A stretch of 37,742 bases of DNA from Phycisphaera mikurensis (lineage in GTDB: Bacteria; Planctomycetota; Phycisphaerae; UBA1845), in NCBI GenBank assembly GCA_005240095.1, contig SBAX01000482.1:1-37742 (forward strand), read 5' to 3'. The first letter of the stretch is position 1; the number at the start of each line of letters is the position of its first letter. The position numbers were made by a program, and so were the translations under genes. This document shows, one piece after another, positions 1-37,604 of the stretch. The notes below the pieces were generated by a model. It was not told the origin of the DNA. It worked only from the letters and a program-made list of their open reading frames with translations, and searched no databases.

Positions 1-2913
1 GGCCAGCAGGGTCTCCCAATGATCGCCGACGAGGATGCCGAGCTCACCCTGCGGCTGGCCACTGGCCACTGGCCACCGGCCACTGCCAAGACCCCCCTCG
101 ATCCCCCCTTGGCAAGGGGGGAGGCGCTGCGAGCCTGCGTCATACCCACCCTTGCTTTCGCCCCCGCCGATGCCATCGATCTCTTGGCCGGGGCGCCGCG
201 GGCGGCGAGGGATCAAGAGATTTCCATCGGCGATTCGTTTCGCTACTGGTCCAAGGTCGCCGAGCTGGTGCTGGAGCTGCTCGCCCGGCAGCAGTTCGTC
301 CCGGCCGTGCATCATGCAGGCGGCGACGAATACCGCGGCTACTGGCGGGTGATCATCGAGGATGAGGCTACGACCTCGCGCCTGGCCGCGCTGGTGGCGG
401 CCATGCCCCCCGTGTGCCGCGCGATGGCACTCGACGCTGCGCCTCAGGCCTCCGCCTTCATCGAAACCTTCCTCTGGAAATCCGTAGACGGCCTGGTGCG
501 CCGCTGCCTGGAGGCCGACGAACTGGCCCAAGCCCTGCACGAGCGCCCGGACTCCACGCCCACGCTCTCTATGCGCTGGCTGCGCTCCCTGGTCGAGGCC
601 GACGCCGCCATCCACGGCTCGCCCGCAGAGCGCGCCGCCATCTACGCCATCGTCGGCAACTGGCTCAGCCGCCTCAGCCCCACCGCCCCGCAGCGCGGCT
701 TTCGCACCTGCCTGCGTCTGCACGCCCCGGCCAAAGGCGACGGCGCATGGCTGCTCACCATCCACGCTCAGGCCCTGCACGACCCCGCGGTGATCGTCGA
801 TGCGCAGGCCCTCACCGACGCCCAGGCAGCCTATCCGCACGTGCTGCCTCGTCCCTTCGATCACGCCGCCCAGCGGGTCCGCGCCGACATCGCCCAGGCG
901 GCCCGACATTTTCAGCCGCTCGCCCCCTGCGGCGAGCCCAACGGACCGTGGAGCTGCCCCCTCACCGCCGCGGAGGCGTACACTTTCCTTCGCGACGCCG
1001 CGCCCGTGCTGCAGATGGAGGGCTTCGGCGTGTTCCTGCCGCCGTGGTGGCAGGAGGAGCGCCCGCGCCTGCGCATGCGCCTGGACGTGCGTCCTCGCAG
1101 CGCCGACGGCCGCACCGCCTCGATGCGCCTCGACGCCCTCGTGGAATACGACTGGAAGGTCGCCCTCGGCGACGAGGAGCTGTCACTGCAAGAAATCAGC
1201 CAGCTGGCCGCCGCCAAGGAGCCCTTAGTGCGCATGCGCGGCAAGTGGACCGAGGCCAAGCCCGCCGACGTGCAGGCCGCCTTGCGCTTCATGGAAAAAC
1301 ACGGGCGCGGCGAGATGACCCTGATGGAAGCTCTGCGGCAGTGCTACGTGGCCGACGACCTGCCCACGGGCTTGCCCGTCATCGGCCTGCGCAGCCACGG
1401 CTGGATCGATACGCTGCTCAACGCCACCGAACATCAGCGCATGCAGCGCCTCGCCCCGCCCGCCAACTTCCACGGCGAGCTCCGCCCCTATCAGCTTAAG
1501 GGCCTCGAGTGGCTCAACTTTCTCTCCAGGCTCGGCCTGGGCGGATGCCTTGCCGACGACATGGGCCTGGGCAAGACCATTCAGCTAATCGCCCTGCTAC
1601 TGGAAGAGCGCGAGGCTGCCCCGGCGCCGGGTCCGACGTTGCTGGTGGTGCCCATGTCGCTGGTGGGCAACTGGCAGCGGGAGATCGAGCGCTTCGGGCC
1701 CTCGCTGAAGGTCATGGTGCATCACGGCCTGGAGCGGCGAACGGGGCAGGAGTTCATCGACGAGGTCGCCCGCCATGACGTGGTCATCTCTACCTACGCC
1801 CTTACGCATCGCGACTTCGAACACCTCAGCGCTGTGCAGTGGTATCGGGTGGCCCTCGACGAAGTCCAGAACATCAAGAACCCGGCGGCCAAGCAGTCCG
1901 CGGCCGTGCGGGCCTTACGCGCCGTGCATCGCGTGGCTCTCACCGGCACGCCCGTGGAAAACCGGCTCGCCGAGCTGTGGTCCATCATGGAGTTCCTCAA
2001 CGTCGGCTACCTGGGCAGCGCCCACGATTTTCGCCGCCGCTTCGCCGTGCCCATCGAGCGGTTCCACGATGAGGACCGTTCCGCGCGACTGCGAAGTCTC
2101 ATCCGCCCCTTCGTCCTGCGGCGGCTCAAGAGCGACCCACTGGTGCAGGTGGACCTGCCCGCCAAGATGGAGATGAAAGTCTTCTGCAACCTCACTAAGG
2201 AGCAGGCGGCGCTCTATGAGGCTACGGTCGGCGACATGCTCGGGCAGATCGATCGCGCCGGCGGCATTCAGCGTCGTGGCCTCATCCTCGCCACTCTCAC
2301 CAAGCTCAAGCAGATCTGCAACCACCCGGTGCTGTTCCTGTCGGACGGTACCGAGCTGCCGCGGCGCAGCGGCAAGTGCGAGCGGCTCACCGAGATGCTC
2401 GATGAGGCCCTCTCCGAGGGCGATAAGGCCCTGATCTTCACGCAATACCGCGAGATGGGCGAGCTGCTTAAGAAGTTCCTTGAGAGCAGCCTCGGGCGCG
2501 CCATCCTGTTCCTGCACGGCGGCACGCCGCGTACCCAGCGCGACGCCATGGTCGACCAATTCCAGAGCGGGCCGGACGGCCCACCGATTTTCCTGCTGTC
2601 GCTCAAGGCCGGGGGATTCGGCCTCAACCTCACCGCCGCCAACCACGCGTTTCACTTCGACCGGTGGTGGAACCCGGCCGTCGAGGACCAGGCCACCGAC
2701 CGCGCTCACCGCATCGGCCAGACCCGCGGCGTGCAGGTCCACAAGTTCGTCTGCATCGGCACCCTCGAGGAACGCATCGACGCCCTGCTGGAGCAGAAGC
2801 GCAACCTCGCCGACCGCATCATCGGCGCCGGCGAGGAATGGCTCACCGAGCTCTCCACCGACGCCCTCCGCGACCTCTTCGCCCTCTCCCGCGACGCCGT
2901 GGCCGAAGAATAA
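1..2913 (+). CDS. SNF2/SWI2-family ATP-dependent helicase (5' partial)
   Basis: DNA-dependent ATPase of the bacterial SNF2 (HepA/RapA-like, helicase superfamily 2) group, expected to act on DNA-protein complexes in the cytoplasm. Counting from the first ATG at 19, the Walker A motif DDMGLGKT is near residues 513-520, motif II is DEVQ at 614-617, motif III is LTGTPVENR near 640, motif V is near 862-870 and motif VI DRAHRIGQ is near 894-901. Residues 1-470 match the SNF2-associated N-terminal region of bacterial members. The frame is open to base 1, and members of this group are usually longer at the N-terminus, so the true start probably lies to the left and the ATG at 19 is internal. Residues 12-35 are encoded by two adjacent repeat elements (families C and B) that look inserted. 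Motif II DEVQ replaces the commoner DEAQ or DEGH. Family assignment is firm; the cellular role is unknown. Confidence 0.93.
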   Translation, partial: GQQGLPMIADEDAELTLRLATGHWPPATAKTPLDPPLARGEALRACVIPTLAFAPADAIDLLAGAPRAARDQEISIGDSFRYWSKVAELVLELLARQQFVPAVHHAGGDEYRGYWRVIIEDEATTSRLAALVAAMPPVCRAMALDAAPQASAFIETFLWKSVDGLVRRCLEADELAQALHERPDSTPTLSMRWLRSLVEADAAIHGSPAERAAIYAIVGNWLSRLSPTAPQRGFRTCLRLHAPAKGDGAWLLTIHAQALHDPAVIVDAQALTDAQAAYPHVLPRPFDHAAQRVRADIAQAARHFQPLAPCGEPNGPWSCPLTAAEAYTFLRDAAPVLQMEGFGVFLPPWWQEERPRLRMRLDVRPRSADGRTASMRLDALVEYDWKVALGDEELSLQEISQLAAAKEPLVRMRGKWTEAKPADVQAALRFMEKHGRGEMTLMEALRQCYVADDLPTGLPVIGLRSHGWIDTLLNATEHQRMQRLAPPANFHGELRPYQLKGLEWLNFLSRLGLGGCLADDMGLGKTIQLIALLLEEREAAPAPGPTLLVVPMSLVGNWQREIERFGPSLKVMVHHGLERRTGQEFIDEVARHDVVISTYALTHRDFEHLSAVQWYRVALDEVQNIKNPAAKQSAAVRALRAVHRVALTGTPVENRLAELWSIMEFLNVGYLGSAHDFRRRFAVPIERFHDEDRSARLRSLIRPFVLRRLKSDPLVQVDLPAKMEMKVFCNLTKEQAALYEATVGDMLGQIDRAGGIQRRGLILATLTKLKQICNHPVLFLSDGTELPRRSGKCERLTEMLDEALSEGDKALIFTQYREMGELLKKFLESSLGRAILFLHGGTPRTQRDAMVDQFQSGPDGPPIFLLSLKAGGFGLNLTAANHAFHFDRWWNPAVEDQATDRAHRIGQTRGVQVHKFVCIGTLEERIDALLEQKRNLADRIIGAGEEWLTELSTDALRDLFALSRDAVAEE
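52..88 (+). repeat. Family C repeat, copy 1 (inside SNF2 gene)
   Basis: Tandem copies of a CTGGCCA(C/A) heptamer-like unit (ctggccactggccactgg and onward). The same unit occurs at 14801-14827 and 26815-26844. Here it encodes the peptide ATGHWPPATA in the helicase. The membrane protein copy at 14801-14827 is read in the same phase and also gives GHWP. It is directly followed by a family B element, so the two form a composite insertion. Confidence 0.7.
91..123 (+). repeat. Family B palindromic element, copy 1 (inside SNF2 gene)
   Basis: The layout is ACCCCCCT-n4-CCCCCCTT-n3-AAGGGGGGA. The second C-tract and the G-tract form a hairpin arm, CCCCCCTT ggc AAGGGGGG. The same layout recurs at 26673-26706, 31743-31775 and, inverted, 31806-31840. 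In the helicase it is read in frame as TPLDPPLARGE. Confidence 0.8.
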
Positions 2914-19380: not shown

Positions 19381-22300
19381 CTACTGCACTGGGCAGCCGC
19401 ACTGGCTCTCGACGGCCTGGCCGGTGTTGAAGAAGGCCCGGGCCTGCTCGAAGGTGATCACCCCCGCGAAGGCGTTCTGCATGGCGGACCGTACCTGGCT
19501 GACCGTCAAGGGGTAATCGACGTCCGGATGGGCGGCGTTGAGCAGAGCGGCGGAGCCCTGCAGAAGCGCCTGGTTGAACGAGCCGCCGGTCATGTTCGCA
19601 GCTTCGAAGAAGGTGATGCCCGGATCGAAGTTGCCGGGGATCTCCGGTGATGACAAGTCGGTGATGCCGAAGGCGTCGACGAAGAGCATCGACGGCGTGA
19701 AGCCCGTGGGGCCCCAGCGGTCGACGTGGTTCTTCCAGAAGCCCTGAGAACAGGCCTCGCGCCCGAGCCGGGCTTCGGCGGTGAACCGGAACGGCGCGCT
19801 GGCGTTGCCGCAGTCATCGGTGGCGGCGAACTCGCCCATAATGTAGGCCGGACCCGGAGCGGTGATCTTGATGGAGCCATCGGGCTGAACAGCGGCGATG
19901 ATCTGGTCGCGGCTGTTGGCGGTGATGGCCGTCAGGCGAGCGAGGCTCAAGCCCACGTCGGAGCAGTTATCGCTGGCCCGGGCGGTGAACACGGCCGGTC
20001 CGCTTTGACAGATGTAGTCAACGCCGCCGGTGAATGTGATTACCGGCGCCTTCGTGTCCTGCACCGTCACGACCTGATCGACGCTTGCGGGGTTGCCGCA
20101 GTCGTCCTCGGTGGACCAGGAACGGAAGATGGTCGATTCGCCCTCGCAGTCCCCGGGGACTTCCTTCTCCGCGAAAGCCACGGAGATGGAGGGATCGCAG
20201 TTGTCCGAAGCAGAGAGAGTCGGCGCGCGTGGGATGCTGTCGCATTCCGCGGTGATGTCCTGCGGGTCGCCGCTTAACTGCGGAGAAGTCGTGTCCACTA
20301 CGGTCAGCACCTGCACATGGGCGGATTGGTTTCCGCAGTCGTCGGTGGCGGTCCAGCGTCGCGTGATGGTGGAGCGTCCTTCGCAATCGCCGGGCTCGGC
20401 GGTCTCGTCAAGATCGACGTTTGCCACGGAGCAGGTGTCGGTGGCGGTCACGTTGGCGGGCTCGGGCACGGCGTCGCACTCGACGGTGGCGTCAGCCGGC
20501 AGCTCGCCGAAGCTGGGGGGCTTTGTGTCGGCGACATGGATGACCTGTGTCTGAGAGACCTCATTGCCGACAGCGTCGGTGGCGGTCCAGGTGCGAATGA
20601 TGGTCCAACGTCCGTCGCAGTCGCCGGGCTGAGTCGTCTCGCGCAGGGTAACCGTCGGCGTGGCGCAGTTATCCGTGGCGGTCACGTTGGGCGGCGTGGG
20701 AATCGCGTCACACTCCACGGTGATATCCGCGGGAACGCCTTGAAGCGTCGGGTCGCTAGTGTCGACGACGTCCAGAATCTGGTTTTGCGACGTTTCGTTG
20801 CCGCAGGCATCGGTGGCAATCCAGGTTCTGGTGATGGTGGCGGTACCCACGGTCGGTCCAGGGACGACATCCTCGATCAATTCGATGGTCGGCTCAGAGC
20901 AGTTGTCCGTGGCCGTCACGGTAGGAGGATTCGGGATTCCGCTGCACTCCACCACGCCATCCGCAGGAACGCCGAAGAGCTGGGGCGGCATGGAGTCGAT
21001 CACGTCAATGATCTGCGTGCCGCTCGAGGCGTTTCCGCAGTCGTCGGTGGCGGACCACTGCCGGGAGACGGTCCACTCGCCTTCACAATCACCGTCGATC
21101 GTTGTCTCATCCAGCACGACAATGGGCGTGGAACAGTTGTCCGTGGCGGATACGTCGGCGGAAGCCGGCACTGCGTCGCATTCGACCATTGTGTCGGCCG
21201 GAACGCCCGACAGTTGGGGGGCGGCCTGATCGGTCACGGTGATGGTCTGAGTCTGTGAGGCTTCGTTGCCGCACTCATCAAGAGCGATCCACGTGCGCGA
21301 GACGGTGGCCTCACCGTCGCAGCGACCGGGCATAAAAACGTCAGCCAGCTCGACGAAGGCCTGCGAGCAATTGTCGGAGGCAGTCACTTCGGCCGGCGCG
21401 GGGATGGCGTCGCAGGAAGCGGAAGCATCCTGAGGGACGCCCTGGAGCGTGGGGGCACTGTTATCCTGCACATCGATGACCTGCACGTGAACATCGCTAT
21501 TGGCGCAGTCATCGGCGGCGCTCCAGGTTCGCAGGATCGTCGCCTCGCCCAGGCACTGGCCCGGCTGGTTGTCTTCCTCGAAGACCACATCGACCGGCCC
21601 GCAGTCATCGGTGGCGGTGACGGTAACGGGGGCGGGGACGGCGTCGCATTCCACTGTCTGATCGGCGGGCTCCTGGCTGAGCACCGGGTCGGAATCGTCG
21701 CCGACGGCGATGGAAACCGATTCCCAGGCCACATGGCCGCACTCGCCGCCGCTGGCGGTGACGGATAACTCCATCACGCAGCCGCACACCGGATCGGCGG
21801 CGATGTTCACCGTGTTGCCGGTGGCGTCGCCCACAATCTGGCCGCATCCGCTGACGCTCCACAGGAACGACAGGTTCGGTAAGCCGGAGTAGTCGACGAC
21901 TGAGGCCTGGAATCCGCTTTCGCTGCACGAGGCCTGCGGCGCGGTGATCTCCAGATCAGGGGCCGGTTCCAGAGGGAACCGAACAATGGCGAAGTCCTTC
22001 AAGTCTGCCGTCCACGAGGAGGACGACCGTGTCTTGGCGGTGAAAGTGGCGTCAGTGTTGCAGGCGTCCACGTCGACGCCCAACGCCGAAAGGTTGGCGG
22101 CGCCTTCAACCAACTGACGATGAGTAAGGACGTTCACCATCGCCCCATCCGTGGTGAAGTGCTTCCACGTGCCTCCGGCACCGTGAGGAATATCCAGAAG
22201 ATTGGTGGCACTGAACATGGAATCAGGCACGTCGACGAGAATGAACTGCGCGCCGTCCCAGAACCGGATGCTGGCCACAGGGTGCGTTCCGCCCTGCTCG

Positions 22301-22947
22301 AAGTCCACGTTGATGAGGAAATCGTTGATGGTGCGCCCGCCGTCGGGGCCGAGGCCGACGATAAGACCGCTCGTCGTGCCGGTGGTGATTACGCCAGCCT
22401 GATTGAATTCGAAGTCCACGTGACTGTCGCCGCTGATGGATCGCGTTTCCGCGGCTACGAACACCCAACGATCACCGGTCAGCGGATCGACGCGGGTGTG
22501 GAAGTAGCAGTTGGTGATGTCGTTCTTCTGCGGGCTTCCGCCGCCGCCGCCCCAGTCCCACGGGCTCTGTCCGAGTCCGATCAGGTCGAGGTTTTTATTG
22601 CCTCCGCCAAAGAGAGTCGGGTCGAAGCCGTCGCCCTGATTGCCCCAGTTGGGGTCGACCATGTGCGCAGCCCGGAAGGCGGTGCCTCCCGCGTCGAGGG
22701 CGGGAAGTCCGTTTGCATCGAGCACTCCGCGGAACGAAGCACCCTGCGCCCAGCCGTCACCCAGTTGGAAGCCGGCCGGGGCGCTGCCCGAGTAGAGTAG
22801 CCCATGGACTTCAAACGGTGCGCCCGGAGATGCCGTACCCGGAAAAGTCTGGGCCACGACGACGCCGATCAACGCGGTTGCGACCATGATCGCACCGGTC
22901 AGTACGCGCCGTTTCCAGGTGCGCTGCGAACGTGCCATGCTGCTCAT
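19381..22947 (-). CDS. Exported HYR/Ig-like repeat protein with SQGFWKNH domain
   Basis: A 1188-residue secreted protein. The start at 22947 has GGAGGGG about eight bases upstream and opens a long, basic signal peptide (membrane segment near residues 16-33). Residues 34-345 are a beta-rich domain (PWDWGGGGG; SHVDFEFNQAGV). Residues about 346-415 form one Ig-like unit. Seven HYR-like Ig units follow (about 416-962), each ending in a W-A-T-DDCGN/Q-V-DT pattern and starting GVPAD-VECDA-P. The C-terminus carries CSQGFWKNHVDRWGPTGF, a motif found at the ends of many exported bacterial proteins. The even cysteines suggest disulphide-bonded domains outside the cell. Likely a surface or extracellular structural/adhesive protein. 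Confidence 0.85.
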   Translation of the reverse strand: MSSMARSQRTWKRRVLTGAIMVATALIGVVVAQTFPGTASPGAPFEVHGLLYSGSAPAGFQLGDGWAQGASFRGVLDANGLPALDAGGTAFRAAHMVDPNWGNQGDGFDPTLFGGGNKNLDLIGLGQSPWDWGGGGGSPQKNDITNCYFHTRVDPLTGDRWVFVAAETRSISGDSHVDFEFNQAGVITTGTTSGLIVGLGPDGGRTINDFLINVDFEQGGTHPVASIRFWDGAQFILVDVPDSMFSATNLLDIPHGAGGTWKHFTTDGAMVNVLTHRQLVEGAANLSALGVDVDACNTDATFTAKTRSSSSWTADLKDFAIVRFPLEPAPDLEITAPQASCSESGFQASVVDYSGLPNLSFLWSVSGCGQIVGDATGNTVNIAADPVCGCVMELSVTASGGECGHVAWESVSIAVGDDSDPVLSQEPADQTVECDAVPAPVTVTATDDCGPVDVVFEEDNQPGQCLGEATILRTWSAADDCANSDVHVQVIDVQDNSAPTLQGVPQDASASCDAIPAPAEVTASDNCSQAFVELADVFMPGRCDGEATVSRTWIALDECGNEASQTQTITVTDQAAPQLSGVPADTMVECDAVPASADVSATDNCSTPIVVLDETTIDGDCEGEWTVSRQWSATDDCGNASSGTQIIDVIDSMPPQLFGVPADGVVECSGIPNPPTVTATDNCSEPTIELIEDVVPGPTVGTATITRTWIATDACGNETSQNQILDVVDTSDPTLQGVPADITVECDAIPTPPNVTATDNCATPTVTLRETTQPGDCDGRWTIIRTWTATDAVGNEVSQTQVIHVADTKPPSFGELPADATVECDAVPEPANVTATDTCSVANVDLDETAEPGDCEGRSTITRRWTATDDCGNQSAHVQVLTVVDTTSPQLSGDPQDITAECDSIPRAPTLSASDNCDPSISVAFAEKEVPGDCEGESTIFRSWSTEDDCGNPASVDQVVTVQDTKAPVITFTGGVDYICQSGPAVFTARASDNCSDVGLSLARLTAITANSRDQIIAAVQPDGSIKITAPGPAYIMGEFAATDDCGNASAPFRFTAEARLGREACSQGFWKNHVDRWGPTGFTPSMLFVDAFGITDLSSPEIPGNFDPGITFFEAANMTGGSFNQALLQGSAALLNAAHPDVDYPLTVSQVRSAMQNAFAGVITFEQARAFFNTGQAVESQCGCPVQ
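20050..21700 (-). repeat. Seven tandem 234-bp HYR-like coding repeats
   Basis: The VECDA-type anchor of each unit (gcgtcgca or close) occurs at 21641, 21407, 21173, 20939, 20705, 20471 and about 20237. All six intervals are exactly 234 bases (78 codons), with no insertions or deletions although the sequences differ clearly. It is a protein repeat array, not a CRISPR array: there are no constant repeats with variable spacers. Confidence 0.85.
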
Positions 22948-30931: not shown

Positions 30932-33118
30932 CTATCGCGGAAAAGCGTCCGGCAGTCCGCCGTCGATGGGGAGCGTGGCCCCGGTGGTGGGCGTGGCATT
31001 GCTGGCGAAGAAGACCACCGCATTGCCCACGTGCCGTCCGGTCACGCGGGCCTTAAGCAGGTTGCGCTGGCGGTAGTACTCGGGCAGATCATCGGGCTTC
31101 AGGTCATGCGTCTGGGCACGCCGCGGGGCGACTTCCTTCCATAGACCGGAGGGCGTCTCTTCGTCGCCGAAGACGGCATCGGGGGTCAGCATGTTCACGC
31201 GAATGCCGAAGGGGGCCAGCTCGACGGCGGCCAGTCGTCCGAGCTGGTGGGCGGCGGCTTTGGAGGCGCTGTAGGCGGCGAACTCCTTGCCGGGCGAGAG
31301 CACGTTCTTGCTGGAGATCATCACGATGTGCCCGCCCAGACCTTGCTCTTTCAGGATGCGGATTCCTTCGCGCATGAACAGCAGATAGCCGGTGGCGTTG
31401 ACATCCATGACCCGGCGGAAGTCGTCGGCGGAGAGTTCGTCGATGGGGGCGACGTGGGCGATGCCCGCGTTGGGGACGATCACGTCCACGCCGCCGTACA
31501 TGCGGACGATCTGCTCGTATCCGCGGCGGACCCCGGCCTCGTCGGTCACGTCCATGACCACGGCGATTGCTGCACCGGCGCCGTGCGTCTTTTCGATGCG
31601 CTGGACGACGGGCATCAGGCGGCGCCCGTCCACGTCGGCCACGGCCACGTGCGCCCCGGCCTCGGCGCAGACTTCGGCAATCGCTGATCCGATGGCCCCA
31701 GCACCTCCGCTGATGATCACCACCTGGCCCTCCAGGGGACGAACCCCCCTTAATCCCCCCTTGTGAAGGGGGGACGCCTGAAGGGACGGGTCGACCTCGG
31801 TTTCGCCTCCCCCCTTACCAAGGGGGGACACAGGGGGGTTGTCGAGCTTGGCGCGCTGCAAAGCGCGGTACTCCATGTCGTAGAGATGCTGGGGTGCGAG
31901 TGATTCGAAGGAATCGATGGCGTGGGCCTTGGCCAGAGCGATGAGGGTGTGTTCGGCGATGTCGGCCGCGACTCGTGCCTCGCGCTTGGAGCGCCCCCAG
32001 CAAAGCAGCCCCGCACCGGGAAGCCAGACCACGCGGGGGCCAGCGTCGGCCAAGGCCGCGGTCGACCCGCCGTGGCGCTGGACGTAGGCGGCATACTTTT
32101 CGCGATAGCCCGCCACGGCGCTGCGGAACTGCTCACGAAGGGCACCCGCGTCGTTCCAGTTTGGGTGTTCGATCAGCAGCGGCCAGGGCTTCGTGCGAAT
32201 CAGGTGGTCCGCGGTGAGGGGGCCGCAGGCGGCCAGGGTCGTGATCGCCGGACTCTCCAGGATTCCCAGCAGCTCTGGCGTAGCCCGCCAGTCGAGGACT
32301 AGCCGGGAATAGGGTCGGTCTGCATCGCCGGTCGGCGCGGCGAGCAGTCCGCGGAGGACCGGCGCTGCTTGGGCGACGTTGAGCGCCGGCTGCTGGTCCA
32401 TGGGGCGCGGTGCGGCCGCCGCATGACGTGGCGCACGCGTTTCGATGAACTGCTCACAGCGACTGACCAGATCGATGTGTCGCTCGTACGAAGTCCGGGC
32501 ATCATCACCAAAGGTGATGAGCCCGTGTTGCAGCAGCACCATGCCCTCTATGTTGGGGTTTTCTTCGTGGGCTCGCCCGACGGCCTTGGCCAGGTCGAAT
32601 CCGGGGCGCACGTAGGGCAGGATGGCCACGCGCTCGCCGAGCACCTCCCGAATCAGCTCCGCGTCGCTGGGTTGGTTGGTCAGGATGATGACCGCGTCGG
32701 CGTGACTGTGGTCCACGTACCGCGGAGGCAAGACGGCATGAACCAGCGTCTCGATGGAGGGAGTCGGCGCGCTCGCGTCGAGCAGGCGGGTGCGAAGTTC
32801 GCGGACCATCGCTTCGTCGTCGAGCTGGCTCAAGCCCGTCAGCCGGCGTAGGTTTAGTAGATCGAGGGCGGGAATGTCCTGTGGCTCCAATAGAGCCATA
32901 TCCGCGCCCGATGCCTTGACGTAGACCACTTCTATGGCCTCGCCGAAGCGGTTCGTGATCACGCTCTTGAGGGAGACGTTCCCCCCGCCGTGGAGGACGA
33001 GGTCGGGCTCCGCGCCGATGAGCCGCGCGGTGTAGAGTCGAAGGGCAAGGTCCTCGTTGAGGGATTTCCATCGCTGGATCGCCTCCTGGGCCCCGTGTTG
33101 CGTCCAGCGGTTTTTCAT
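30932..33118 (-). CDS. Bifunctional class II aldolase / short-chain dehydrogenase (RhaD-like)
   Basis: A 728-residue fusion of the rhamnulose-1-phosphate aldolase/alcohol dehydrogenase type. Residues about 20-415 are a class II aldolase domain: [10 protein letters not shown] near 43, zinc-ligand HSHADAVI near 137 and [12 protein letters not shown] near 197. Residues about 462-728 are an SDR domain with the NAD motif [13 protein letters not shown] in VPNAGIAH, the catalytic Ser (MISSKN) and YSASK. It should split a sugar phosphate to DHAP plus lactaldehyde and act on the aldehyde. Residues 426-459 between the domains are encoded by an inverted pair of family B palindromes ([13 protein letters not shown] ... 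[10 protein letters not shown]). Followed upstream by an LsrF-like aldolase gene at 24 bases, one operon. Confidence 0.88.
31743..31775 (-). repeat. Family B palindromic element, copy 3a (inside aldolase/SDR gene)
   Basis: ACCCCCCTTAATCCCCCCTT, GTG, AAGGGGGGAC: the same C-tract, spacer, C-tract, G-tract order as the copy at 91-123. It is read on the minus strand in frame in the linker between the aldolase and SDR domains. Confidence 0.88.
31806..31840 (-). repeat. Family B palindromic element, copy 3b (inverted partner)
   Basis: CCTCCCCCCTTACCAAGGGG and on to GGGGGGTT is the reverse orientation of copy 3a, 31 bases away. The two outer arms (aacccccct and aggggggtt) can pair, so 31742-31840 forms a large inverted repeat, like a two-unit REP/BIME structure. 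It is in frame in the gene. Confidence 0.88.
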
Positions 33119-33142: not shown

Positions 33143-33922
33143 CTATCTGGCCGGCTTGAGCGTGTCCCAGGCCTGGGTGTCGGTCTTGTTGTCGTGAACG
33201 ATGGTCCGTACCGCCCGAATCATTTCCACGGGCCACTGGGACTGGAAGATGTTGCGGCCCATGTCCACACCGGCGGCGCCGTCGCGCACGGCGTGATAAG
33301 CCAGCTTCAGGGCCTCGCGCTCTTCGATCTTCTTGCCCCCCGCGATGATTACCGGGACCGGACAGCCGCCCACGACCTTTTCGAAGCCTTCGCAGTAATA
33401 CGTCTTCACGAAATGGGCCCCGAGTTCCGCGGCGATGCGGCAGGCCAGGCTCAGATAGCGGGCGTCGCGAACCATCTCCTTGCCCACCGCGGTCACCGCC
33501 AGAACCGGCAGGCCGTAGCCTTGGGCCTCATCCACAAGCCGGCCGAGATTGGTCAGCGAAGCCTTCTCGTGCGGGGAGCCCACGAAGATGGACATGGTGA
33601 CGCACGCGGCATTGAGGCGGATGGCCTCTTCCATGGAGACGGTCAGTTCTTCGTCGGAGAGATCGTCCTTAAGGACGCTGGTTCCGCCGGAGACGCGCAG
33701 CACGATGGGCACCCTGGCGGCCGGATCGACGCAGTTCCGCAGCACGCCGCGAGTGAGCATGAGGGCATCGGCGTAGGGCAGGAGGGGCTTGATCACCCGC
33801 CCGGGCTGCTCCAGCCCGGTGGTGGGGCCCTGGAAGTAGCCGTGGTCCACGGCCAGCATGACGCATCGCCCCGTGGCCGGTTGCAAGATGCTGGAGAATC
33901 TGTTCCGCAGGCCCCAATCCAT
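33143..33922 (-). CDS. DeoC/LsrF-type class I aldolase
   Basis: A 259-residue TIM-barrel Schiff-base aldolase or thiolase of the LsrF/FbaB group. It begins MDWGLRNRFSSILQP and contains VMLAVDHGYFQGPTTGLEQP, LRVSGGTSVL, the lysine-bearing strand HFVKTYYCEGFEKVVGGCPV, VIIAGGKK and GVDMGRNIFQS, all as in E. coli LsrF. LsrF itself thiolyses a DPD-derived (AI-2) phosphate; no other lsr genes are visible here. It is paired by 24 bases with the aldolase/SDR gene, so a sugar-phosphate breakdown role fits better than quorum-signal processing. It is a little shorter than LsrF at the N-terminus. Confidence 0.85.
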   Translation of the reverse strand: MDWGLRNRFSSILQPATGRCVMLAVDHGYFQGPTTGLEQPGRVIKPLLPYADALMLTRGVLRNCVDPAARVPIVLRVSGGTSVLKDDLSDEELTVSMEEAIRLNAACVTMSIFVGSPHEKASLTNLGRLVDEAQGYGLPVLAVTAVGKEMVRDARYLSLACRIAAELGAHFVKTYYCEGFEKVVGGCPVPVIIAGGKKIEEREALKLAYHAVRDGAAGVDMGRNIFQSQWPVEMIRAVRTIVHDNKTDTQAWDTLKPAR

Positions 33923-34115: not shown

Positions 34116-35102
34116 TTGCTGCTGAGTTGCGTCGGTCGGCGCGTGGAGCTGGTGCGTGCCTTTCGCGAGGCCGGCAAACGCCTTCGCGTCGGCCTGGAAA
34201 TCCACGGCACTGACGCGACCGCGTTGTCGCCCGCCATCCATCACGTGGACCGGCCTCATCTTGTGCCCTCCATCGCCAGCGGGGACTACATCCGTGCACT
34301 ACTGCGGATCGTGCAGAGGGAGCGCATCGACCTCCTGATCCCGCTCATCGATTCGGAGCTTGGACTGATCGCTGAGGCGGCGCCGAAGTTTGAGCGCCTC
34401 GGCTGTCTGGCCCTGATCTCTTCGCCGCGGGTCGTCGAGGTTTGCCGGGACAAGATCGAGACCTTCCGCGTTCTTCGCGGCGCGGGCATCGATACGCCGC
34501 TCACGTGGACCTGGGCCCAGGCCATGCGGCAGCGACGACACAAGTTCCCCTATTACCTCAAACCTCGCGCGGGCAGCGCCGCCAAGGGCAACTACGTGGT
34601 GCGGAATCGCGCCGAGCTGGAGGTCTTCGGGCGGCGCGTGCCGGACGCTATCGTCCAGGAATACGTCAGCGGCGTGGAGCACACGCTCGACGTGTACACC
34701 GGACTCGACGGAGTTCCGCGGTGCGTCGTGCCTCGGCGGCGGCTGGAAGTCCGCACCGGGGAGGTCAGCAAGGGCATCGTGGTGAAAAACTCGGCGATCA
34801 TGGAGGTCGGCCGGCGCGTCGCCGAGGTGCTTGGGCAGTGCCGGGGGGTCATTACGGTCCAATGCATCGTGACGCCCAAGCAGCGCATCCGGGCCATTGA
34901 AATCAACCCGCGTTTCGGGGGCGGGGCTCCGCTCGCCATTTACGCCGGCGCGGACTTCCCGAAGTGGGTCCTGCAGGAGCTGCTTGGGGCTGTTCCGAGA
35001 ATCGACCCCGACGGCTTCCGCGATGGTGTGGCCATGCTGCGCTACGATGAGTCCGTGTTCCTCGAAAACGCAGCGGGCATGGTCGCGGAGGGCGAGTTCT
35101 AG
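34116..35102 (+). CDS. ATP-grasp enzyme (CarB/PylC-like)
   Basis: A 328-residue carbon-nitrogen ligase-like protein. The N-terminus LLLSCVGRRVELVRAFREAG is the pre-ATP-grasp Rossmann-like domain. The ATP-grasp core has VEVCRDKIETFRVLRGAGID, PYYLKPRAGSAAKGNYVVRN, DAIVQEYVSGVEHTLDVYTG and RAIEINPRFGGGAPLAIYAG (the metal-binding E-x-N-x-R). Substrate unknown. The start is unclear: the TTG at 34116 falls inside the family's first strand, while GGAGG (34081-34085) stands six bases before an in-frame ATC at 34092. This would give a more natural N-terminus with eight more residues. The stop overlaps the convergent membrane gene by four bases. Confidence 0.8.
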   Translation: MLLSCVGRRVELVRAFREAGKRLRVGLEIHGTDATALSPAIHHVDRPHLVPSIASGDYIRALLRIVQRERIDLLIPLIDSELGLIAEAAPKFERLGCLALISSPRVVEVCRDKIETFRVLRGAGIDTPLTWTWAQAMRQRRHKFPYYLKPRAGSAAKGNYVVRNRAELEVFGRRVPDAIVQEYVSGVEHTLDVYTGLDGVPRCVVPRRRLEVRTGEVSKGIVVKNSAIMEVGRRVAEVLGQCRGVITVQCIVTPKQRIRAIEINPRFGGGAPLAIYAGADFPKWVLQELLGAVPRIDPDGFRDGVAMLRYDESVFLENAAGMVAEGEF

Positions 35103-36763
35103 CGGCGTGTGGAGTCCGCGGCGCTGAGGCTCTTCCGGTCCCAATCCCAGTTGATCTGCCTGATCGGACGGTCCTTCCGTGCGAATACGAACATGATGGG
35201 GTCGCTTTGGTACTGGTCGTGGTAGTCCACGCCTACGGCCGGCCCGTAGTGCGCTTCCAGAAACGCCAGCCATTCCTTGAAGGGCTTTTCATCGAAGAGC
35301 ACGATGATCACGCGAGGCAAATGCCGCTCAAGGTCTTCGATGAGCGTCCTCCTGCGTTGCTCAACCTTGGGCATACCCGCGGCCAGGCCGGTGATCATCG
35401 TGTAGCGGGAAGCGCACCTTCGCCCGGAATAGTAGTAGATTTCCGCATCGTTGCCGTAGACGAAGATGGAATCATCCGGCTCCGTGACCGAGGCGACGTT
35501 CGCGCCCTGGGCGCGTCCCCAGAAGTCGCGAAAGTTGTAGCGCTTCACGGTGATCTCATGGCTCGGCAGGAAAAGGTAATGGCGTGCCTGGGAGTAGAAG
35601 AGGAACCCCGGCACCAGTAGAAAGAGTCCGGCGGGCGCCGCGCCCCGCCATGCGGTCACGCGCCCTACCCTGCGAACCAGCGACTCCATCACGACTGCAA
35701 CCGCGAGGACCGCCGGTCCGACCAGCAGATAGTAGTAGTGCGGCCAGAAGCGCCCCGATAGACACGTCGCCAGGTATCCCGCCGCGGCCAACGGAATGAT
35801 CGCCGCGACGTCGCGCTGCCTACGTGTCGCCGTCGCGGTGACGAGCACGACCAGCGCCGCCGCGCCCGTGATCCAAAGGGGCAGTGCGCTTTCGAAGATG
35901 AAGGGATGTCGCACGGGCTTGAAGAAACGGAAGAACCGGTAGTAGAAGGGCTCGCCCGTTTCGCTGTAGCCCACGTTGAACAGCAGGGCGGCATCGACGA
36001 ACTCGGAAAACCGATCCGTCGCGGCGAAATAGGAGAACGCCGCAATCCACACCAACAAGGGACCGGCAGCGAACACGGCCAGTGTGGCAACTGGTGCACG
36101 TGCTCGCGAGGTTCTTGCAGACCGCGCCACGAGCCACAGGGCAAGCAGGAGCCAATAAATGGCCACGATCGGCTTGAGCGTGGACGCCAACGCCAGAAGG
36201 AGGCCCGACAGGAGGACCGAGGGCCATTGCGCACCCGGGCCTTTGACCCTCACCCCGACCCTCTCCCGAAAAGGGAGAGGGGGCTGGGCGCGGATGGCGA
36301 AATACCATGCGGCGAGGATCAGGGTGTTCATGTAGATTTCGCGGTTGCACCCTTCGCCGCCGGTGCCCGGATCAGAAGATGCCAGTGCGAAAAGGGCCGC
36401 GCCGAGAATCGCTGCCTGACGTCCGCTCGTGCGCTGCAGGATCAGGGCGATGAACGCCAGCGACACGATGGAAAACGCCAGGGCGACGAGGCGAAAGACA
36501 ACCGGCGCATCCCCAAACAAGGCAATGACCAGCGCAAAGAGGGCGAAAACCCCGAAGGGCTGATGGTCCCACACGTCCACGTACAGGCGATCGCCAGCGA
36601 GAAGTCGAGCGCCGATGTATGCATAGTTGCACTCGTCGGTTTCCAGAGGCAGGCCGAAGGCGCGCAGCCGGAAAGCAACCAGGACCGCAATCGCCACCAG
36701 GATGCCGACCCAAGGAAGGCGGGACGAGGTGCGGCTGTTACCTGCTTCGGAGGCGACCGCCAT
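35099..36763 (-). CDS. Polytopic membrane protein, GT39/ArnT-like glycosyltransferase
   Basis: A 554-residue integral membrane protein with about 11-13 hydrophobic segments. After the first helix the loop PLETDECNYAYIGARLLAGD carries the acidic pair typical of GT-C (ArnT/PMT-type) enzymes, followed by RLYVDVWDHQPFG. The enzyme would transfer a sugar from a polyprenyl phosphate on the outer face. The C-terminal ~120 residues are soluble (SIFVYGNDAEIYYYSGRRC). The ATG at 36763 avoids overlap with the divergent hydrolase gene. Residues 161-174 (PPLPFRERVGVRVK) come from a family A element in a loop between membrane segments. No partner polysaccharide genes are in the window. Confidence 0.75.
   Translation of the reverse strand: MAVASEAGNSRTSSRLPWVGILVAIAVLVAFRLRAFGLPLETDECNYAYIGARLLAGDRLYVDVWDHQPFGVFALFALVIALFGDAPVVFRLVALAFSIVSLAFIALILQRTSGRQAAILGAALFALASSDPGTGGEGCNREIYMNTLILAAWYFAIRAQPPLPFRERVGVRVKGPGAQWPSVLLSGLLLALASTLKPIVAIYWLLLALWLVARSARTSRARAPVATLAVFAAGPLLVWIAAFSYFAATDRFSEFVDAALLFNVGYSETGEPFYYRFFRFFKPVRHPFIFESALPLWITGAAALVVLVTATATRRQRDVAAIIPLAAAGYLATCLSGRFWPHYYYLLVGPAVLAVAVVMESLVRRVGRVTAWRGAAPAGLFLLVPGFLFYSQARHYLFLPSHEITVKRYNFRDFWGRAQGANVASVTEPDDSIFVYGNDAEIYYYSGRRCASRYTMITGLAAGMPKVEQRRRTLIEDLERHLPRVIIVLFDEKPFKEWLAFLEAHYGPAVGVDYHDQYQSDPIMFVFARKDRPIRQINWDWDRKSLSAADSTRR
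36245..36283 (-). repeat. Family A palindromic element, copy 4 (inside GT39-like gene)
   Basis: The left arm contains the 20-mer identical to copy 1. CCCTCTCCC (36259-36267), gaaaa, GGGAGAGGG (36273-36281) form a perfect 9-bp stem. It is read in frame on the minus strand, giving PLPFRERVGVRV. Confidence 0.88.
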
Positions 36764-36833
36764 GGGATCGGATGGTAACCCGCGCGCCCCTGCCCGCCAA
36801 CTTTCCATTGGATTCGCGCATCGGCACGGTACA

Positions 36834-37604
36834 ATGTCGCTGGTGTTGACCTTCTCGCTGCAGTCCGGGTCCAATGGGAACTCGATCTATGTCGAGGCCA
36901 ACGGAACGCGGCTGCTGTTCGATGCGGGCATCAGCGGGGCGCTGGCCGCCCGGCGGATGGCCGAGCACGGGCGGGACATCCGCTCCGTGGACGCTGTGAT
37001 CATCTCCCACGACCACGTCGATCACATCCGCTGCGCCGGCGTGTTTCATCGCAAGTTCGGCATCCCTTTGTACGTCACGCGGCGCACGCTGGCCTCGACA
37101 TGGTGCAGCCTGGGCAAGCTGTGCGACGTTCATTACTTCGAGTCCGGCGACGTACTTCGATTCGGACACGTGGCGGTTCACACCATCCGCACGCCCCACG
37201 ATGCGGCCGACGGGGTCGTCTTTGTCGTGGAGTGCGAGGGCCGGCGGCTGGGCATTCTTACGGACTTAGGTCACCCCTTCGCCGGTTTGCAGGACATTCT
37301 GGAGTCCATCGACGCGGCCTATCTGGAGTGCAACTACGATCCCGACATGCTCGAGCGCGGCCCCTACCCTCTTGCCCTCAAGGCCCGGATTCGCGGGCAC
37401 GGCGGGCACCTCTCCAACGATGAATCCGCGGAGCTCCTTCGCGCCTGCCGACGCCGCCGGCCTAAGTGGATCGCCGTAGCGCACCTCAGCGAGGAGAACA
37501 ACCATCCGCAGCTCGCCGTCGGCGCCCAGCGCGCCGCGGTGGGGTGGGACTATCCGGTGTATCACGCCTCGCGCTATTCCACATCCGGCCTGTGGGCCGT
37601 CTGA
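36834..37604 (+). CDS. MBL-fold metallohydrolase (YycJ/WalJ-like)
   Basis: A 256-residue metallo-beta-lactamase-fold protein. It starts MSLVLTFSLQSGSNGNSIYV, then ANGTRLLFDAGISGALAARR. The metal motif is SHDHVDHI (HxHxDH), followed by HTIRTPHDAADGVVF and LGILTDLGHPFAGL (later His/Asp ligands), YLECNYDPDML and RIRGHGGHLSNDE. These are the features of YycJ/WalJ, a predicted nuclease-like MBL protein of cell-wall and DNA-related regulons. The ATG at 36834 is chosen because it matches the usual N-terminus; an upstream extension would run into the divergent gene. Confidence 0.88.
   Translation: MSLVLTFSLQSGSNGNSIYVEANGTRLLFDAGISGALAARRMAEHGRDIRSVDAVIISHDHVDHIRCAGVFHRKFGIPLYVTRRTLASTWCSLGKLCDVHYFESGDVLRFGHVAVHTIRTPHDAADGVVFVVECEGRRLGILTDLGHPFAGLQDILESIDAAYLECNYDPDMLERGPYPLALKARIRGHGGHLSNDESAELLRACRRRRPKWIAVAHLSEENNHPQLAVGAQRAAVGWDYPVYHASRYSTSGLWAV

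Follow-up and report, generated by a model that had tools for sequence, protein, structure and literature searches.

In-frame copies of a REP-like palindrome, and the additional linker that two of them encode in an aldolase/dehydrogenase fusion of a Phycisphaerae-related genome

The window analysed here (the whole stretch of DNA, 37,742 nt) carries a gene that fuses a class II aldolase with a short-chain dehydrogenase, in which two inverted copies of a palindromic repeat are read as protein between the two domains (table 1), raising the question of whether such a pair is a special linker device or one instance of a repeat that enters genes more widely. The product matches NF006194 with 804 bits (NCBIfam cut-off 686), and Pfam assigns Aldolase_II to residues 32–223 and adh_short to residues 465–649. 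The copy on the forward strand reads AACCCCCCTTAATCCCCCCTTGTGAAGGGGGGACGC and that on the reverse strand belongs to the same repeat family; together with their spacer, the two 36-nt copies (31742–31840) code in frame for N427–V459. The in-frame inverted pair that a first-pass annotation of the sequence had described as an interdomain linker is hence confirmed, opposite orientation included, although the copies are separated by a measured 27 nt and not by the 31 bases given there. In a structural model of the fusion that is only fair overall (mean pLDDT 65), residues 422–458 all score below 50; they follow the last aldolase helix (419–426) and precede the first dehydrogenase strand (466–470), as a loose linker would be expected to do. 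Directly upstream of the fusion gene and on the same strand lies a gene for an LsrF-type thiolase/aldolase (33143–33922; NF006081 above cut-off).

Table 1. Positions of the fusion gene, the repeat copies and the comparison loop (window positions unless a locus is named)
Feature	Position	Strand	Remark
Fused class II aldolase / short-chain dehydrogenase gene, 728 aa	30932..33118	-	NCBIfam, Pfam
Repeat copy 1 in coding order, residues 427-438	31805..31840	-	agrees with genome consensus
Spacer, 27 nt, residues 439-447 (ETEVDPSLQ)	31778..31804	-	
Repeat copy 2, opposite orientation	31742..31777	+	coding (-) strand reading gives residues 448-459
Third window copy, near N-terminal end of SNF2-helicase ORF 19-2913	91..126	+	
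D-glutamate cyclase loop inserts	L091 2013-2175; L153 1859-1948; L146 2001-2019		

Comparison with orthologues establishes that the linker is an insertion. Sixty genomes, the host included, were searched with the fusion protein and 14 fusion-bearing loci were compared closely; once two partial loci (L025 and L035) had been left out, all 12 alignable family relatives lacked exactly 29 residues at the linker point. A named genome collection gave a further 10 loci, of which a partial one (L110) and a distant dehydrogenase (L111) were left out, and the same 29 residues are missing from all eight full-length homologues that remained. Seven of these eight come from metagenome-assembled genomes (MAGs) labelled Proteobacteria, Deltaproteobacteria, Desulfobacteraceae or Syntrophaceae, and the eighth (L102), from a Phycisphaerae MAG, duplicates L027, giving 19 distinct orthologues in total. 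The fusion is the same two-domain enzyme as the RhaD-like fusions of NF006194, yet its 29 additional junction residues set it apart; orthologues with the same linker peptide were also looked for, and the peptide of residues 427–459 was found in none of the 19. At the DNA level, a same-genus relative (G001) reads AAA CTC GAC GGG CGG CTC GAT CGA CCG, whereas the fusion gene reads AAG CTC GAC (99 nt) CGT CCC, with 99 nt in place of 12; the net gain is 87 nt, or 29 residues, and the frame is therefore kept. No target-site duplication is readable against the G001 DNA, and the comparison is equally compatible with one pair that replaced 12 nt and with two single copies that arrived on either side of the old loop.

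The repeat is abundant in the host genome (4.67 Mb, 488 contigs). Its 36-nt consensus, drawn from 62 host-genome copies, is 5'-RACCCCCCTnnnTCCCCCCTTnnnAAGGGGGGAGGC-3', with a stem of 8 bp and a loop of 3 nt, and 42 copies from a second genome (G013) fit the same consensus with a less fixed first base. The core CCCCCCTTnnnAAGGGGGG, allowing two mismatches, occurs at 120 host-genome sites, singly and in clusters, as against one site for a reversed-pattern control. Across genomes the distribution is patchy: the tagged core was found in 9 of the 60 genomes searched, host included (76 sites in G013, 69 in G000, 24 in G019 and at most six in the others), and a looser pattern in 28 of 392 genomes of the phylum. 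A known structured RNA was rejected as an identity for the repeat, all six Rfam matches falling far below the gathering score. The third copy in the window is probably upstream of the true start of the SNF2-helicase; along this ORF, Pfam domains start only from residue 316.

Copies of the repeat recur in frame in other genes. We fetched 48 host-genome stretches, taken from the exact-core list and a BLAST list and covering part of the 120 sites, which with the window hold 73 cores (one place, 26678, was dropped as doubtful), and 40 of the 46 exact sites listed for G013; a hand-picked set of 21 host-genome and 16 G013 ORFs was read in detail, a coding-score classification serving only for the choice of candidates, and 40 ORFs were put through Pfam for in-gene copies. 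Host-genome copies fall within a single Pfam stretch in SpoIIE (L051), Metallophos (L052), Amidohydro_1 (L055), Formyl_trans_C (L080), HAD (L081), Asn_synthase (L086) and Mur_ligase_M (L095), as do G013 copies in tRNA-synt_2 (L118, AspRS-like), topoisomerase I (L130) and a class I tRNA synthetase (L149). Not counted as proof were eight loci without a Pfam family (L054, L075, L077, L079, L089, L090, L094 and L151) and those with a copy outside the Pfam domain (such as L062, L067, L070, L116, L144, L145 and L150). Alignments give the same picture for individual enzymes: peptidase T gains 20 aa (60 nt) at its copy that are absent from 14 of 14 aligned relatives, D-glutamate cyclase has 62 residues against one in 3db9, thymidine kinase 82 against two in 2ja1 and TopA of G013 24 against none in 4rul, and residues 431–467 of a KDO transferase align to only 103–113 of 4bfc, an insertion. 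In the formyltransferase Fmt the copy mostly replaces loop residues, for a net gain of about four residues. The structure match of asparagine synthase ends ahead of the copy, so that this case rests on Pfam, and Pfam is likewise the sole source for DnaK of G013 (L114), in which the best HSP70 stretch runs to residue 293 and copies stand at 296 and 311. Judged from these alignments and domain matches, in-frame copies lie within real enzymes, often inside a domain, both in the host and in a second genus of the family (topoisomerase I, AspRS), and the first-pass view of a repeat read as protein as something unusual, in the sense of a one-off, is not supported. With several copies falling inside one domain (those in the SpoIIE, Asn_synthase, Formyl_trans_C, Mur_ligase_M and HAD proteins), a position between domains is also no general pattern. 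Two genes have features of their own: in thymidine kinase (L069, 2024–2953) the roughly 82 extra residues directly follow the DEAHFFD motif and the repeat supplies only part of them, and a valyl-tRNA synthetase (L053, 3–2768) holds several repeat-like peptides (RRSDEATKG, that of the 36-nt repeat itself and LTPAPLPGRERG).

We hypothesize, with a probability of roughly 85%, that the repeat is a REP-like palindrome whose insertions survive where the reading frame is kept and the loop is permissive, and that the fusion linker is one such insertion. A 36-nt palindrome would have spread through the genome of a member of this Phycisphaerae-related family, and two copies would have reached the short loop between the aldolase and the dehydrogenase, where the insert would have survived as a multiple of three with no stop in that frame, at a point of the protein that can take flexible residues. 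We infer a transposition-like copying process behind the spread, and a fusion linker that is neutral or nearly so. Insert sizes differ from the 36-nt unit (60 nt in peptidase T, about 12 nt net in Fmt, 87 nt in the fusion), and deletions or later indels must therefore be added to this explanation. The in-domain inserts elsewhere argue against a role at the domain boundary and, together with the absence of the linker from 19 distinct orthologues, against a special need for the pair in the fusion; the insert is no special device for linking domains.

The loop of D-glutamate cyclase behaves as such a permissive site. Eight of 10 aligned relatives have no long insert there; G013 has one copy of the 36-nt repeat and the host genome three, and in G001 the loop holds a pair of a different palindrome, which by sequence is the other family named in the first-pass annotation and codes for a different peptide. 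Different elements with different peptides in one loop indicate a tolerant site rather than a needed peptide. The loop, hit by two repeat families in three genomes of the family, is an insertion hot spot.

The reading register of the copies is the main point that our preferred reading leaves unexplained. In the host genome, 25 of 29 in-gene copies are read as xSPLxKGG, where about 11 would be predicted from open-frame frequencies, and a count by gene gives 19 of 23 (p ~1e-5). The ORFs were chosen by hand and adjacent copies depend on one another, so that this strong preference is suggestive only; simple tolerance does not fully account for it. One reading built on it makes the palindrome a mobile peptide module that inserts in a preferred register, so that many enzymes receive one and the same xSPLxKGG linker and selection keeps some of the copies; this is unlikely, and if true it would mean that a genome remodels loops of its proteins through copies of a single DNA element. 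It is also quite improbable that the peptide SPLxKGG itself is selected, the repeat serving as a mobile cassette that brings in a hydrophilic, glycine-rich linker in a preferred register: the host register would be in keeping with that idea, but in G013 the three registers stand at 8:9:4 against 7.9:7.6:5.5 expected from openness, with no preference, and the D-glutamate cyclase site takes the 36-nt repeat in two genomes and another palindrome with another peptide in G001.

The inverted pair does form one large inverted repeat, as first proposed. The 111-nt strand at 31735–31845 (-) folds at -74 kcal/mol, compared with -49.6 +/- 3.8 for 200 shuffles (z -6.5), and the 99 nt alone fold as a single long hairpin of -69.5, stronger than each of 500 versions in which synonymous codons spell the same peptide (mean -46.0, best -64.8), so that the peptide alone does not account for the hairpin. 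This stability and the position between two domains are what speak for the proposal that the pair has been kept since its mRNA hairpin slows ribosomes there and aids sequential folding; we nevertheless hold it to be highly improbable, as all 19 distinct orthologues manage without the pair, other copies sit inside single domains so that a between-domain position is not general, and close inverted pairs of this kind do not recur as a unit. In the BIMEs of enterobacteria, inverted neighbouring palindromes can form one larger hairpin, and inverted REP pairs recur between genes as mosaics. The fusion pair is like them in its inverted neighbouring palindromes and its single hairpin, but as a close inverted pair it is the one clear case in this genome, and it is coding. 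Among 17 neighbouring pairs with cores less than 120 nt apart (in 49 host-genome sequences), it is the only one called forward-reverse and closer than 86 nt, the orientation of at least one copy being beyond the script in eight of the 17, such that a few more forward-reverse pairs may exist. The middle of its spacer (query 52–65) is covered by no listed genome match besides the window itself. The BIME-like standing unit suggested by the first-pass annotation is accordingly rejected. That the insertion is an assembly error at a short and frequent repeat in a genome of 488 contigs is scarcely credible, given that both flanks belong to one orthologous gene in frame and with no stop, that the spacer has no second match among those listed for the genome, and that similar cases occur in the better assembled G013 (~80 contigs).

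As to its class, the element is an imperfect palindrome of 36 nt, within the 20–40 nt of REPs in the broad sense, with many dispersed single and clustered copies, and the first-pass label of REP-like stands. Its ends are RACCCCCC and GGGGGGAGGC, and the GTAG terminus of that REP superfamily is absent from the consensus of the 62 host and 42 G013 copies. Nor does the repeat flank a RAYT (Y1_Tnp) gene: among Y1_Tnp genes sought in G000, G001, G013 and G019, with about 1.5 kb on each side checked for the core at up to three mismatches, none of 18 loci has a core nearby, and these genes were rejected as the transposase source of the repeat. CGTC REPs have a terminal CGTC tag, a stem of 8–9 bp and a loop of 4–5 nt according to Table 1 of PMC3733652; the 8-bp stem of our repeat fits, but it has no CGTC tag and its loop is 3 nt. 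With neither tag, we call the repeat REP-like and place it in neither superfamily. Regarding MITE features, there is, besides the lack of a readable duplication, no adjoining Y1 transposase, Y1 being the sole transposase family looked at. Two of the three Y1_Tnp genes of the host seem, by eye, to be surrounded by other palindromes, and those genes may hence serve other families. At L100 (~1350–1500 and 1840–2250), a Y1_Tnp gene is flanked by another palindrome (GTAGGAGGCCAGCCGTTCTACGGCTGG and a near copy), likely a REP/RAYT pair of a different family, as judged by eye.

Rickettsia genomes are small, AT-rich and intracellular. Their palindromic elements (RPEs) are described as dispersed palindromes found in frame in many unrelated protein genes with a recurrent peptide (PMC10969869; PMC3733652), as about 150 bp long (PMC10969869) and, for RPE-4 and RPE-6, as corresponding to CGTC REPs (PMC3733652). 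Our repeat is likewise found as in-frame inserts in several unrelated open genes with a recurrent peptide, absent from orthologues by alignments and domains; the likeness is one of behaviour only. The repeat of these Phycisphaerae-related genomes is GC-rich and 36 nt long. Intragenic GTAG and CGTC REPs, given in PMC3733652 for Opitutus terrae, R. conorii, Thauera and others, are palindromes of 20–40 bp, single or as dimers, with more than half of the in-gene inserts being dimers or groups that code 20–30 residues and with targets that include tRNA synthetases and repair genes. They share with our repeat short palindromes, single or paired, inside genes that include tRNA synthetases, but our repeat has neither tag and no adjoining tyrosine transposase. 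In its behaviour, this REP-like dispersed palindrome matches both intragenic REPs and the Rickettsia elements. In a literature search, no paper gave the DNA sequence of the repeat and, besides PMC3733652, none of those listed dealt with palindromic repeats inside Phycisphaerae or Planctomycetes genes.

The spread of palindromes in frame into enzymes is an uncommon but known phenomenon. Best known from Rickettsia, it also reaches conserved enzymes in two genera of a Phycisphaerae-related family, through a repeat with neither of the REP tags described so far (GTAG, CGTC). As the relatives supply the empty sites, the inserts form a natural map of tolerated loops, in topoisomerase I, peptidase T and thymidine kinase among others. 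Elsewhere in the window, the other palindrome family is represented by a copy (CCCTCTCCC..GGGAGAGGG; 36244–36283) that codes for PPLPFRERVGVRV in frame in ORF 35099–36874 (-), an ORF with no NCBIfam match; and six direct repeats of 160 nt, spaced at 234 nt, lie at 20340–21669 inside ORF 19381–22947 (-).
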